Of a stretch of DNA of 64,000 nucleotides, positions 8,716-26,914 are shown one piece after another. The stretch spans positions 1 through 64,000 of the forward strand of contig JAGHSY010000031.1 of NCBI GenBank assembly GCA_018065615.1, given 5' to 3'. Every line of letters starts with the position of its first letter. Position 1 is the stretch's first letter. Below the pieces are notes generated by a model, which worked only from the letters and a program-made list of their open reading frames with translations, searched no databases and was not told where the DNA came from. A program made the translations under genes and the position numbers. The DNA comes from Candidatus Colenecus caballi (lineage in GTDB: Bacteria > Bacteroidota > Bacteroidia > Bacteroidales > Bacteroidaceae).

Positions 8716-10170
8716 TCAGAACTGGGAACTGATGGTCTTGATCTTGATTGAGTCCGATGCGCCTCCAATCAGTTTGAGCTGATGCATGCTCATGTCAGGC
8801 TGGTAGCTTGAAACCGTGCCGGTTGATGAGAGCTTTGATCTGACAGGAATGAGTACAGCCTTGTCCCAGTTGGGGTGTTCGGCTGCATATGCCTGTCTGC
8901 CTGCTTCATCGGCCTCCATACCTTTTTCTTCAAGCCACTTGTCACGGTCGCTGTAGGCCCTTTCTACCAGTGCGGCTATGTTGCTGAACGTATAGGTTCC
9001 AAGTTTTGATGAATATGCAGAAACGTATGATTCTGTATTGTCAACGTTGTTGTTGCCGGTAAAGAAGTCACGGACGCAGTCCTTTCTTATAAGAGCAAGG
9101 ACAGCCGGAACTGAAGGCTTGTAAGTGGCCGATGGCGTATTCGCACTTGACAGGCACAGGAATGCCTCATTGAGAAGAGTGCTTTCCTTCTTCATCTTGT
9201 CCATTGGCAGTGTGATTTCTGTAACCAGTCCGAAGGGGGACCTTATCCATGTGCCGCTGGCATCGGCCAACTGGCTTTCAAGGCCGGTCCATGAAATGCT
9301 GTTCAGCTGCATGACTGCTGAATTTCCGTTGAATTCGGCAAGAACGGAACAGTATTCGGGATCACCGTCATCGTCCGTCATAATGGTCTTGATATTCACT
9401 TCAAGAGTGATTCTGTTTATGTACAGGACTGTTCCGTCACCATGGGTGCACCTTATATAAAAGCCTTTGTAGAAGTGTTCCATGAATGTGGCGGCATCGG
9501 CAAAATACTGCTTGCCGTCAGGACTGTAGTATGTCTCAAGAATTTTTGTGGCAACAGAGTCAGGCAGGCGCAGCTGAATGTCGGGGTAGCGGTTCACAAT
9601 TGCAAGAACTGAGTCCGAGTTCTGATAGTTGCGGGCCGATACTGTCATGGTGGCCAATGGCTTGGCACTGAGGTCGCAGTATTCTGCAGGGTCAATGCTC
9701 GGATAGTATCTGCTGCCAGCGTCAATCATCCTGGCAAGAGGGAAGACTTCAAGCTTTATGTCGTTTTCAGGATCACCAAAATAACCGGAATAATACAATC
9801 TGAGGTTTGCGTAATAGGGATCTGCCGAACCGACCTTGTCAATGAACCACTGCGGGAAATGGAACTGCTCCAATCCGTAAACGGAGTCGGGCAGGGTGTA
9901 GTTTTCAGGACAGTTGATCTGTGTGATGATTCCGGATTGGTATGTGGCACCGCTGTACTGTTCCGTGTAACGCCCCAGATTGTACTGCGGGGTCATTATC
10001 AGGATGGAATCATCGGCCAGAATGGTTCTTGAAGTGGCAAAACAGGAATCGGAGATGACGGTAATCCTGTCACTTTCCGGGGTGATGGAACCGCCAAGGC
10101 TTGATGTGTCTTCGTCACAAGATATCATAAACAATACTGCAAGACTGCAGATGGCAGTTCTGATATTCAT
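8716..10170 (-). CDS. DUF4270 family lipoprotein
   Basis: About 484 residues. I place the start at 10170, giving MNIRTAICSLAVLFMISCDED: a short lysine-poor signal with lipobox ISC and Asp at +2. Upstream in-frame starts (to 10302) would overlap the glycogen synthase gene. The body is beta-rich with no catalytic motif I recognise and matches the DUF4270 family, found next to glgA and panC in many Bacteroidales. It lies 16 bases downstream of the glycogen synthase homologue on the same strand, so both are probably co-transcribed. Function unknown; the location outside the cytoplasm is inferred from the signal. Confidence 0.82.
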   Translation of the reverse strand: MNIRTAICSLAVLFMISCDEDTSSLGGSITPESDRITVISDSCFATSRTILADDSILIMTPQYNLGRYTEQYSGATYQSGIITQINCPENYTLPDSVYGLEQFHFPQWFIDKVGSADPYYANLRLYYSGYFGDPENDIKLEVFPLARMIDAGSRYYPSIDPAEYCDLSAKPLATMTVSARNYQNSDSVLAIVNRYPDIQLRLPDSVATKILETYYSPDGKQYFADAATFMEHFYKGFYIRCTHGDGTVLYINRITLEVNIKTIMTDDDGDPEYCSVLAEFNGNSAVMQLNSISWTGLESQLADASGTWIRSPFGLVTEITLPMDKMKKESTLLNEAFLCLSSANTPSATYKPSVPAVLALIRKDCVRDFFTGNNNVDNTESYVSAYSSKLGTYTFSNIAALVERAYSDRDKWLEEKGMEADEAGRQAYAAEHPNWDKAVLIPVRSKLSSTGTVSSYQPDMSMHQLKLIGGASDSIKIKTISSQF

Positions 10171-10186
10171 AGGACAGAAATGCATG

Positions 10187-10987
10187 TCAGATTTTGTTGT
10201 AGAATTCGTTAACGGCTTCCGGTTCGGGACATCCGGAACCTTCAAGGACCTGAATGCCTTTTTCCTTGGCGTATGCGGGCAGAACAGGGTCAACACCTGC
10301 ACTGTTGCAGATTATTCCGTCTGAAAAGTCAATGGCTTTCATCATGATGGAATTGAAGTCTATCGGGGTGCGGAATGTGCCGGCATCGGACTTTGTCATG
10401 TCTTTGGTGAGCACCAGTTCCGGCATGTTGTCACGGAACCTGCCTTCAAAAGCCTTGTCGTAGAGTGAATACACGACCTTTGAGTCACGGAATGCGGGTT
10501 CTTCCCTGTACGCTGTCTTTATGTACATGGGAATGAGTGATGAAAGCCAGCCGTGACAATGTATGATGTCAGGATTCCAGCGCAGTTTCTTGACGGTCTC
10601 AAGCACGCCGCGTGCAAAGAATATTGTACGTTCGTCATTGTCCTGATATTCAAGGCCTTCCTTGTCCGAAACCATAAGACGGTTCTGGAAGTAGTCATCA
10701 TTGTCAATGAAATAGACCTGAATGCGGGCGGACTGGAGTGATGCCACCTTGATAATAAGCGGATGGTCCGTATCATCAATAATCAGATTCATGCCGGAAA
10801 GACGGATCACTTCATGCAGCTGGTTGCGGCGTTCGTTTATGGGACCCCACTTTGGCATGAATGTGCGAATGTCATTTCCCAGTTCCTGAATGCTCTGGGG
10901 CAGTTGTCTGCAGTAGTCTGCCATTGGTGACTGCCCGACAAACGGGAAGATCTGGTCTGAAATGAATAGAATTCTCTTGTCGCTCAT
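10187..10987 (-). CDS. Glycogen/starch synthase N-terminal (GT5) domain protein
   Basis: A 266-residue protein starting MSDKRILFISDQIFPFVG at 10987; a longer frame to 11074 runs through the promoter and is rejected. It matches the first Rossmann domain of GT5 glycogen synthases (IIHCHGWLSSLIPMYIK, FRTPIDFNSIMMKAIDFSDGIICNS) and ends where the second GT-B domain should begin, about half the usual 480 residues. The N-terminal KxGG loop typical of ADP-glucose binding is replaced by QIFPFVG. Such half-length homologues occur in Bacteroidales beside DUF4270 and panC. Without the donor-binding second domain it may be regulatory, a subunit, or inactive; the GT4 protein at 3563 could supply synthesis. 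Confidence 0.85.
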   Translation of the reverse strand: MSDKRILFISDQIFPFVGQSPMADYCRQLPQSIQELGNDIRTFMPKWGPINERRNQLHEVIRLSGMNLIIDDTDHPLIIKVASLQSARIQVYFIDNDDYFQNRLMVSDKEGLEYQDNDERTIFFARGVLETVKKLRWNPDIIHCHGWLSSLIPMYIKTAYREEPAFRDSKVVYSLYDKAFEGRFRDNMPELVLTKDMTKSDAGTFRTPIDFNSIMMKAIDFSDGIICNSAGVDPVLPAYAKEKGIQVLEGSGCPEPEAVNEFYNKI

Positions 10988-11010
10988 AAGGCCTGATAGT
11001 CTTTTGTCTT

Positions 11011-11019
11011 GCAAAGATA
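11011..11019 (-). promoter_or_regulatory. -7 box for the glycogen synthase-like gene
   Basis: On the minus strand TATCTTTGC matches TAnnTTTG, 24 bases upstream of the start codon at 10987, and would lie inside the coding sequence if the longer start were used. Confidence 0.6.
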
Positions 11020-11113
11020 TAGAAAAAAAACATGAAAAAGGCAAGCAGTTTGACCGAATCTTTTGAAATGCCACAAATTATAACTTATTTTGCGGACTTT
11101 TCGATGTCAGGTA

Positions 11114-11962
11114 ATGATTAAGGTAATCACTTCAATCGCAGAGCTGAAACAGGCTCTTGAGGCTGACCGCAAGGCCGGCAGAACAATCGGACTTGTACCG
11201 ACAATGGGTGCCCTTCATGAAGGTCATGCATCACTGGTACGCCGCAGTGTGAAAGAGAACGATGTTACTGTTGTCAGTGACTTTGTGAACCCCACACAGT
11301 TCAATGACAAGAATGATCTGAAGAACTATCCGCGTACAATGGAGGCCGACTGCAAGCTTCTTGACAAGGAAGGCGCGCAGTTCGTGTTTGCTCCCACTGT
11401 AGAGGAAATGTATCCGGAGCCCGATACCCGCCAGTTCGATTTCACCCCGCTGGACAAGGTAATGGAAGGTCCCAGCCGTCCCGGCCATTTCAACGGCGTT
11501 GCCCAGATTGTAAGCAAACTGTTCTATGCTGTTGAGCCCGATAAGGCGTATTTCGGTGAAAAGGACTTCCAGCAGCTTGCCATTATCCGTGAAATGGTGC
11601 GTCAGCTTGACCTGAACATTGAGATTGTGGGCTGCCCGATAGTTCGTGAAGAGGACGGCATGGCACTGAGCTCACGCAATATGCTGCTGTCAAAGGCGGA
11701 ACGCAAGCTGGCCGCAAACATTTCACGCACTCTGTTCGAGAGCCGCCGCTATGCAAGACAGCACACACTGGCATCTACACGCAAGTATGTCATTGACACC
11801 ATCAATTCATTTGACGGTCTGGAAATCGAGTATTACGAGATAGTTGACGGAAACACCCTGCAGCCGGTTGACAACTGGGATGCCTCATCTTACATTGTTG
11901 GCTGTGTGACAGTCCGCTGCGGCAGGGTCCGCCTTATTGACAACATAAAATACAAGGAATAA
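11114..11962 (+). CDS. panC: Pantothenate synthetase
   Basis: A 282-residue cytoplasmic enzyme joining pantoate and beta-alanine with ATP. The start [15 protein letters not shown] at 11114 is preferred to one at 11090. Signatures: [17 protein letters not shown] (HIGH-type nucleotide motif), [16 protein letters not shown], and the KMSKS-like segment [11 protein letters not shown]. Its stop overlaps the panD start by one base (TAATG), so translation is probably coupled; together they provide the two last steps before coenzyme A synthesis. The gene is divergent from the glycogen synthase homologue. Confidence 0.96.
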
Positions 11963-12288
11963 TGCTGCTTACCGTACTCAAATCAAAACTTCACCGCGTA
12001 AAGGTGACTGATGCCAATATCAACTACATTGGCAGCATTACCATTGACGGCAACTGGATGGATGCCGCAGGTATCATTGACGGTGAGCAGGTCCACGTGG
12101 TTGACGTGACCAACGGCGCCCGTCTGGTGACTTACGTGATCCGAGGCGAACGCGGCAGCAAGTGCATCTGCCTGAACGGCGCCGCCGCCCGTCTGGTCTC
12201 AATAGGCGACACCGTTATTATAATCGCGTACGCACAGGTGACCCCTGAGGAGGCAAAGACTTTCAAGCCTACGGTGGTAATTCCGTGA
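11962..12288 (+). CDS. panD: Aspartate 1-decarboxylase
   Basis: A 108-residue pyruvoyl enzyme making beta-alanine from aspartate. The self-processing site Gly24-Ser25 is visible in [11 protein letters not shown], followed by INGEQV-like and [21 protein letters not shown] signatures. It starts inside the panC stop codon, so both products are made in step. A rho-independent terminator follows. Confidence 0.96.
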
Positions 12289-12346: not shown

Positions 12347-12362
12347 CGTTCCGCAGGTCCTT

Positions 12363-12483
12363 GCCATTTCTTGGTGCCGCCAATCTGCGTTTTGAGGTTT
12401 CCAGTGGTACCAACCCCGCCAAAACAAGGGGGTTGGTGCCACCAGACGTTTCCAACCCCACTTTCCTGGTACCAGGAAATGGC
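12363..12483. repeat. Nested palindromic element
   Basis: The outer arms are GCCATTTCTTGGTGCC (12363-12378) and GGTACCAGGAAATGGC (12468-12483), complementary at 14 of 16 positions. Inside lie GGTACCAACCCC (12406-12417) and GGGGTTGGTGCC (12429-12440), complementary at 11 of 12. The right outer arm itself forms an 18-bp perfect palindrome, TTTCCTGGTACCAGGAAA (12462-12479). The word ACCAACCCC or a close variant occurs repeatedly. It looks like a small non-autonomous or REP-type element between two terminators; no other copy was seen in the window. Confidence 0.6.
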
Positions 12484-12513
12484 GAAGAGAATGCCATGCT
12501 AGTGCGTAACATG

Positions 12514-25518: not shown

Positions 25519-25661
25519 CCGCCAAACAGTGACACACGCATCGCTGTTGTGGGGCTCCTGGCTGCGGTCCGTGAGTCTGACTACCCTGAAAACGGCGTGT
25601 CAGACTCAGGAAGGCAAGCTGCAGGGCTTGTGAATATGGTGGATGAGTCGCTGTTTGGCGG
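25519..25661. repeat. Structured repeat, left copy
   Basis: Ends are perfect 11-bp inverted repeats CCGCCAAACAG / CTGTTTGGCGG, and pairing continues to 17 positions with one wobble and one mismatch. A second inverted pair, GAGTCTGAC / GTCAGACTC, sits inside. Bases 25566-25664 are identical (99 of 99) to 26775-26873. Weaker similarity continues to about 25700. Confidence 0.85.
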
Positions 25662-25707
25662 AAAACGTTACGCGTGAAAATACCGCTGCACCTGCGTGTC
25701 CGGCAAG

Positions 25708-26613
25708 TCAGTTCGTGCTTTTCCTGATTTCACTTTCCGGCAGCCGTGAAATGATGGCAATCTGGCGGAATGTCATTTGTCTTGTCCGTCTCAAATTTTG
25801 TGCAAATACCAGACGTTGTGCCGGCGTAAGGTGTCTGGCGCTCTTTTTCTCAAACAGAGCATAGCATACTTCTTCGGCAATTTTCCTTGCTTCAAGGTCG
25901 TCCAATGATATTCCATGCACTTTTGCCATTTTATTTGAAATGGTATCGCATTTCCGGTTGCCGTTTCCCATGAATACCCTGAATGCGTTGGCGGTTACGA
26001 AAATGTCTTCAAATTTTCTGATGTCAATGTAGTTGGACGGAAGAAGTATCCCATTTGAGACAAGCCATTCGTCCGGTACTTGTCGTCTGCATGCAAGTAC
26101 TTTGCGCCTTTCACGTTCAGTCAGAGAACCGATTGTAACGGGGGCGGCTACGGTCAAATCGGACCTGATGAGCCAGATTGGAATGACGTTTCCTTTCCTG
26201 AAATACAGTGAAGCTGTGCCCCACAGGTAGTCTGACGGCAATATCCCTTTTCCGTCTTTTGTTGGTTGGATAATTGTGTAGACCGCGACATTCTGCAGGT
26301 AATCCTTGTCAGTAATGTGATACAGATCGCACTCAAGACGTACATTGTCAATGTCACCGCGTGTTCTGACTATATGGTGGCAGAGTGATGTTTCATACAT
26401 GAGTTTGAAACGGACACATTCTTCCTTGCGGCCAAACAGCAGCATGTGCGGGTGTGTGTCTTCGATTGAAAATGACAGGACTGACACGTTGGTGTTTGCG
26501 GCACAGACGCCAACCATATTGAATGCCGCTTTGAAGTCCGATTCTGAAGTGATGAAATTGTGTGCGTCATTACCATTGCCAAAAAGATGATAATACTTCT
26601 CTTCTGTTTCCAT
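25708..26613 (-). CDS. RAYT / IS200-like Y1 transposase-related protein
   Basis: A 301-residue protein. Residues 1-145 look like a Y1 HUH nuclease domain: HUH-type motif His54-Pro-His56 in EDTHPHMLLFG (a Pro in place of the usual hydrophobic residue) and candidate catalytic Tyr112 in VAVYTIIQPTKDGKGILPSDYLWG, the same order as RAYT proteins (YxxxNPVKAG...DYxWSS). Residues about 150-301 form an extra domain ending in an HTH-like segment (LTPAQRLVFAQNLRR ... SRLPESEIRK), a layout also seen in some RAYT proteins. It may process hairpin repeats such as those flanking it. No IS partner gene (TnpB) is present. Confidence 0.75.
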   Translation of the reverse strand: METEEKYYHLFGNGNDAHNFITSESDFKAAFNMVGVCAANTNVSVLSFSIEDTHPHMLLFGRKEECVRFKLMYETSLCHHIVRTRGDIDNVRLECDLYHITDKDYLQNVAVYTIIQPTKDGKGILPSDYLWGTASLYFRKGNVIPIWLIRSDLTVAAPVTIGSLTERERRKVLACRRQVPDEWLVSNGILLPSNYIDIRKFEDIFVTANAFRVFMGNGNRKCDTISNKMAKVHGISLDDLEARKIAEEVCYALFEKKSARHLTPAQRLVFAQNLRRTRQMTFRQIAIISRLPESEIRKSTN

Positions 26614-26658
26614 AGTTAATTTGTTTGTCGGTTTCAGATTTTTTCAAATCATGGTATT

Positions 26659-26691
26659 CAAAGGTAATGCTATTTTGGGACAATAACCAAA
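26659..26691 (-). promoter_or_regulatory. Promoter of the RAYT-like gene
   Basis: On the minus strand a TTTG (26688-26691) is followed after 21 bases by TACCTTTG (26659-26666), the Bacteroidetes -33/-7 pair. It lies between the right repeat and the gene, so the gene does not depend on host transcription. Confidence 0.65.
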
Positions 26692-26727
26692 TGTTGTACA
26701 TGCTGTTTTTCATGTGACGTTGGTCAC

Positions 26728-26870
26728 CGGCCAAACAGTGACACACGTACTGCGGTCAGGAGGCCCCAAACTGAGGTCCGTGAGTCTGACTACCCTGAAA
26801 ACGGCGTGTCAGACTCAGGAAGGCAAGCTGCAGGGCTTGTGAATATGGTGGATGAGTCGCTGTTTGGCGG
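26728..26870. repeat. Structured repeat, right copy
   Basis: Same layout as the left copy. The left arm has one change (GGCCAAACAG) while the right arm is intact. The ~22-bp block near 26751-26772 (CAGGAGGCCCCA) is close to the reverse complement of the block at the same place in the left copy (TGGGGCTCCTG-type), whereas the bases on both sides match directly. Confidence 0.85.
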
Positions 26871-26914
26871 AAAGAGGTGCGCGGAAAATACCGTTGCACC
26901 TGCGTGACGGGGGA

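Follow-up and report, generated by a model that had tools for sequence, protein, structure and literature searches.

What kind of system is formed by a gene for a putative nuclease and the long palindromic repeats on either side of it? The question arises from the stretch of 64,000 nt of the Candidatus Colenecus caballi genome that was analyzed here (the window), in which two 143-nt elements, A and B, flank a minus-strand gene encoding a protein of 301 aa. A first-pass annotation made from the sequence had proposed a RAYT-like nuclease with its own promoter and with large, two-stem repeats as its cognates. The features of the window are as follows.

25708 to 26613, minus strand: candidate gene for a divergent RAYT-like Y1 nuclease, 301 aa (open reading frame, invariant motifs and profile link to RAYTs).
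25519 to 25661, no strand assigned: element A, 143 nt, downstream of the gene (repeat comparison).
26728 to 26870, no strand assigned: element B, 143 nt, upstream of the gene and of the promoter-like sequence (repeat comparison).
25566 to 25664, no strand assigned: 99-nt identical stretch, in A plus 3 nt past A (exact match).
26775 to 26873, no strand assigned: 99-nt identical stretch, in B plus 3 nt past B (exact match).
25531 to 25536, plus strand: tag slot 1 of A, GACACA, a degenerate GACTCA (slot analysis).
25572 to 25577, minus strand: tag slot 2 of A, GACTCA (slot analysis and pairing).
25603 to 25608, plus strand: tag slot 3 of A, GACTCA (slot analysis and pairing).
25644 to 25649, minus strand: tag slot 4 of A, GACTCA (slot analysis and pairing).
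26659 to 26691, minus strand: promoter-like TTTG-N21-TACCTTTG (motif match).
12361 to 12485, no strand assigned: third element of the window, a solitary 125-nt GGTACC copy, whose cognate paralogue (C23) lies at another site in the genome.

Elements A and B are 90% identical over 143 nt each. The two ~143-bp copies with a 99-bp identical core on which the first-pass annotation was built were reproduced exactly, and the match between 25566-25664 and 26775-26873 allows no further extension. The 11-bp ends described for both copies are found in copy A (CCGCCAAACAG and CTGTTTGGCGG), but the left end of copy B deviates (CGGCCAAACAG, with CGGCC in place of CCGCC). The inner 9-bp inverted pair is also present, joining element columns 54-62 with 82-90. 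The A/B pair is not due to chance, since the element recurs across the whole genome. The promoter-like sequence TTTG-N21-TACCTTTG, likewise noticed earlier, was located at 26691-26659 and resembles the Bacteroidales-type promoter consensus; the motif also occurs upstream of L032 and L035 and is absent upstream of the remaining homologues. In four of 11 gene units (the A/B pair, L032, L049, and L055), only one half of the bracketing elements is near-identical between the two copies, and the other half has clearly diverged; separate exchange or conversion of the halves would give such a pattern.

The window protein contains H54-P55-H56, Y112, Q116, and W131. Clade alignment A2 contains this protein and 12 others from 37 genus genomes (38-78% identical), and all 13 have H54, P55, H56, Y112, Q116, T118-K119-D120, and W131 without variation, including the His54-Pro-His56 and Tyr112 that had first drawn attention to the gene. 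The proline within the HUH motif had been thought unusual; it is present, but HPH is conserved throughout the clade and is no oddity of the window protein. The C-terminal part comprises ~150 aa and possibly ends in a helix-turn-helix, with a weak match to Sigma70_r4 at residues 261-297 that is not significant (E 0.38). An AlphaFold model based on two sequences only (the window protein and L035) had a pLDDT of 38.7, too low for a reliable fold.

Neither the window protein nor A2 had a useful match in Pfam, NCBIfam, PDB, or PHROGs, and the comparison with Y1 profiles suggested by the first-pass annotation brought no direct match of the window protein in Pfam (Y1_Tnp, PF01797) or NCBIfam. The connection runs instead through eight remote relatives found in the genus genomes (alignment A3), and intermediates of this type match Y1_Tnp PF01797 below the cut-off (E 0.002-0.04). 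Aligned with hhalign, A2 and A3 match over their full length with 99.9% probability (E 7e-32), so that HPH falls on NHxH and Y112 coincides with the tyrosine of RAYTs (YxxxN motif). A3 in turn matches the canonical subclass-2.6-like RAYTs of the genus (A4, with NHVH and YIHQNP) at 99.6% (E 1.5e-23). Against PDB, the A3 profile gave six matches, Y1 transposases without exception (E 0.012-0.14), and the A4 profile also matched Y1 transposases only, with TnpA-REP 4er8 at E 0.002. Homology between the clade and RAYTs rests on the intermediates, because the direct comparison of A2 with A4 was not significant (12%). Through them, profile comparison supports the original proposal, and the assignment of the window protein as a divergent RAYT-like Y1-type (HUH) nuclease appears largely right.

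Was the nuclease also single-copy, as had been stated of RAYT nucleases? The genome instead contains three paralogues, each with a separate repeat family. Those on contigs C10 and C23 are 58% and 50% identical to the window protein, and there are no identical copies of the gene in the genome. The THPH gene was detected in 11 of the 37 genus genomes, and in a family sample of 399 genomes matches at E 1e-10 were confined to one of 30 genera. The viral contigs, plasmids, and phages searched gave no match. In a tree, 14 clade members group apart from four remote outgroups (support 99/97), with long branches and seven open forks that limit reading inside the clade. A description of the clade was not found in the literature searched, in which coverage of subscription journals was poor. 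The proteins add an HUH-type clade that has been missed by family libraries.

The first-pass annotation proposed a genome search for solitary repeat copies as the mark of a RAYT-REP system, and this search found ~40 related elements in the 2.25-Mb MAG, mostly solitary and intergenic. Nine clear copies were found by DNA search with the window element, and a covariance model of the scaffold detected 29 places in the same genome (E up to 0.1). The C10 and C23 paralogues are each bracketed by a different repeat with its own dispersed copies, seven for the C10 family and twelve places for the C23 family. These families, bracketing each paralogue, support the proposal of large two-stem cognate repeats. 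Most elements lie between genes with no nuclease gene adjoining, and overlaps are mainly with doubtful short ORFs or the ends of longer ones. Complete solitary elements are much commoner than gene units, and elements of TGTCCC[AG]C type are present in this genome without a resident gene of that type. Single elements without a resident gene were also found at L042:8866-8992 and L209:1465-1588, with the words GGGTGC and AAGGTCCC. Separately, four GACTCA-type copies (L153, L127, L193, and L004) share ~93 bp before the element, which indicates that a larger stretch was duplicated together with it.

Across the genus, the scaffold model detects elements in 26 of 37 genomes. In 16 genomes elements are present and the gene was not detected, so elements can be present without it; MAG incompleteness would explain part of these cases. 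Every genome looked at in which the gene was not detected has TGTCCCAC elements, as expected if an older system had been lost in many lineages, with MAG incompleteness as the alternative for some of them.

At least seven repeat families occur in this one genus, and their length is near-fixed at 143-145 or 124-127 nt, with common ends GCCA(A)...(T)TGGC. Among sequences whose GCCA/TGGC arms match, lengths of 143, 144, 145, and 125 prevail, and 150 shuffled loci gave one chance match. A set of 23 elements from six families can be aligned without gaps over 143 columns, in which GCCAA and TTGGC near the ends and a single C/G at the symmetric positions 17, 55, 89, and 127 are invariant. Around these four columns, at fixed places, each element carries a family-specific word four times. 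The words are GACTCA in the window, GTAACA for C10, GGTACC for C23, GAGAAAC for G019, AAGGAAAC for G014, and GGGTGC for G017, along with TGTCCCAC, which occurs in eight genomes with the gene (the gene being broken in one of them). Slots 1 and 3 are read forward and slots 2 and 4 in reverse, giving two nested inverted pairs. Agreement between slots is 5.25 of 6 inside an element and 2.1-2.4 at loop positions (both computed without the 144-nt class), and 1.65 between families.

The two-stem folding proposed for the window copies is borne out by nested pairing with covariation. When slot 1 is paired with 4 and slot 2 with 3, 89% of cells are paired, and 95 cells show double changes compared with 35 in shuffles and 12-25 in slid controls, although these counts are not independent events, because words within a family are shared by descent. 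For the same reason, the independent evidence consists of ~7 different words, each kept four-fold. An arrangement of side-by-side hairpins was rejected: it pairs 81% of cells and fails just outside the word, where columns 11-12 and 60-61 decide for nesting. The terminal inverted repeats of the element are ~16-18 nt. The GTAG guide shows no enrichment (53 elements contain it 35 times, counting both strands), and at 124-145 nt the elements fall outside the canonical REP definition (a hairpin of 20-65 nt after GT[AG]G). As in REPINs, they are inverted repeats that form one hairpin and are mostly intergenic.

How closely are repeat and gene tied together? Every THPH gene with enough flanking sequence has elements of one word nearby. 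In the usual layout, one element starts 220-293 nt before the start codon and another lies downstream; for L050 the nearest full downstream copy is ~660 bp away, for L054 the upstream copy is ~660 bp away, and in L051 and L052 the bracketing copies are inverted. The word differs between protein clades and matches the clade of the adjacent gene at every locus examined. Close protein relatives share a word, as in eight TGTCCC[AG]C genes, and members with short elements (C23 and G017) branch apart from those with 143-145-nt elements, at weakly supported forks. Since there are only ~7 independent tags, common descent rather than recognition could give rise to the match between tag and gene.

Several known systems offer points of comparison. 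REPINs, which accompany RAYTs, are inverted doublets that form a hairpin in single-stranded DNA and are intergenic and dispersed (Bertels & Rainey 2011, PMC3116915); in SBW25, several RAYT-repeat pairs (GI-GIII) are found in one genome (PMC3116915). The present system shares with them a nuclease gene beside its own repeat family, several such pairs per genome, and dispersed intergenic hairpins. Unlike REPINs, its elements have a near-fixed length of 143 or ~125 nt, constant GCCAA/TTGGC ends, a four-fold word, no enrichment of GTAG, and tens rather than hundreds of copies, and its nuclease differs from REPIN RAYTs in HPH, YxxxQ, and the C-terminal domain. In the TnpA-Y1 subclass 2.6 of Bacteroidetes, the Y1 proteins have 'atypical secondary structures' at their flanks, and these are copied elsewhere in the genome (Quentin et al. 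2018, PMC6006769). A Bacteroidetes Y1-type gene with flanking structures that recur in the genome is found here too, but the subclass motifs are NH[LIV]H, WQ, and YIH[QN]NP (PMC6006769), whereas the present clade has THPH, Y[TCI][IV]xQ, and ~300 aa. Genes resembling subclass 2.6 do occur in the genus (L098-L126) and pass Pfam Y1_Tnp; when their profile was compared directly with that of the clade, the match was not significant. With E. coli TnpA-REP (4er8), the system shares repeats beside the gene and, through the intermediates, weak but specific profile matches. REPs measure 20-50 nt and carry a GTAG guide, and those of E. coli also have a bulge in the stem (PMC8266576); the present elements differ from E. 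coli REP/BIME in their 124-145 nt and in GTAG, which is not enriched. The system lacks the subclass 2.6 motifs and lies outside the canonical REP definition but shares the gene-repeat association, and it is therefore placed with the RAYT-REPIN kind as a variant. What is new is how the repeats are built: the scaffold is constant and carries, in four places, a word that is specific to the family.

Relatives of the genome show how the elements differ between sites. In the horse-faeces MAG of L035 (G019), the region is largely collinear and the gene unit lies between other genes; a GH gene there adjoins tatC, where the present genome has the unit and two other genes. Two candidate empty sites were rejected. 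The segment missing at the GH-tatC junction in many relatives also includes a plug-like ORF and a GNAT gene, and beside the solitary C93 copy, conservation in most relatives extends to the left flank alone. A 2.7-kb segment in G032 and G001 has an inverted pair of 144-nt elements at its borders; G029 has the same flanks with the segment inverted, neither element present, and an unrelated palindrome at one of the two junctions. These differences indicate gain and loss of elements at orthologous sites, and the sequences suggest that elements may take part in inversions. The empty-site comparison proposed at the outset therefore gave differences in presence and absence but no clean insertion point: no single-element insertion with a defined cut was seen among the relatives compared. 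The 2.7-kb segment between inverted 144-nt elements, which is inverted relative to G029, is seen at L231:1543-4564 compared with L302, and the GGTACC-type element at 12361-12485 sits at the breakpoint of 9678-12286, a segment inverted relative to G019.

Could the elements be the left and right ends of a gene-carrying insertion sequence like IS200/IS605, with solitary copies as its remnants? Direct copies bracket most genes, the unit occupies a different locus in G019, and this HUH-type nuclease has the YxxxQ spacing of IS200 TnpA, not YxxxN (motifs in PMC6006769). However, near-identical or multi-copy gene units were not found here and paralogues 50-58% identical carry different words; complete solitary elements far exceed gene units; each bracketing copy is a full palindromic element with no asymmetric LE/RE; and the copies in L051 and L052 are inverted. 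We consider this explanation unlikely. Similarly improbable is that the host uses a domesticated, scarcely mobile nuclease to bind or process regulatory, terminator, or chromosome-structure sites. Intergenic placement, low gene copy number, elements that persist where the gene was not detected, and a C-terminal domain with a possible HTH end (its match not significant) would suit it, but several repeat families with separate words per genome, their presence and absence at orthologous sites, and detection of the THPH gene in just 11 of 37 genomes are more suggestive of invasion and loss than of a function conserved in the host. The ~16-18-nt terminal inverted repeats might suggest MITEs of an unrelated DDE transposon with the RAYT merely adjoining, which is very improbable given that each paralogue has a different bracketing family, the word tracks protein clade and is found again in the inner stem, and no target-site duplication is evident by eye. 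Least probable of all is a transcribed structured RNA whose folding is reflected in the strong nested covariation, since G.T mismatches (52 cells, 27 distinct types) are about as frequent as A.C mismatches (35 cells, 20 distinct types), which gives neither strand a clear preference, and Rfam has no match for the element.

The nuclease family, its cognate repeats, and the hairpin are supported by the data. The locus is probably part of a RAYT-REPIN-like system, a divergent nuclease clade together with tag-coded palindromic elements, for which we infer cleavage, mobility, and reading of the tag. In the model for TnpA-REP and IS608, a single-stranded element folds, stem features beside a constant foot are read, and a tyrosine cuts (PMC8266576, PMC6006769). 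By analogy, the constant GCCAA/TTGGC foot could take the role of GTAG, and the variable stem word could serve as the address. A single-stranded element, for example on the lagging strand template, would fold into one long hairpin, and the nuclease would bind the words of the outer and inner stems. Tyr112 would cut near the foot with a metal held by H54/H56, and the cut element would be joined to other single-stranded intergenic DNA. Non-autonomous copies could spread in this way, while the gene would stay low-copy beside two copies of its substrate. Gene duplication followed by a change of word could lead to separate, non-interfering families in one genome.

Tentatively, and with somewhat less than even confidence, we suggest that each paralogue reads the four-fold word of its own family as an address, and that this address can be exchanged. 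Mutually exclusive words on one constant scaffold would then coexist in a genome, and a gene duplication would be followed by a joint change of repeat identity and nuclease specificity. If so, the genus offers a natural series of nuclease-word pairs that could reveal a recognition code. How RAYTs recognize their repeats, how these spread, and how new repeat families originate are still open questions. Here, the element is otherwise fixed, and at least seven related nucleases, several per cell, are told apart by a short word set off within it. Specificity, cross-talk, and the way in which a new repeat family is born thereby become open to direct tests.

Some sequences in the genus depart from the common element. 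In the remote relatives L057, L058, and L064, the place of the flanking 143-nt element is taken by tandem arrays of 50-84-bp repeats. A half-length element of 71 nt (L301:416-486) is consistent with deletion between direct word copies 72 nt apart. In L099, a canonical RAYT is bracketed by two 72-nt hairpins (1024-1095 and 1965-2036) whose ends also carry GCCAAA and TTTGGC, a hint of wider sharing of the GCCAA foot.
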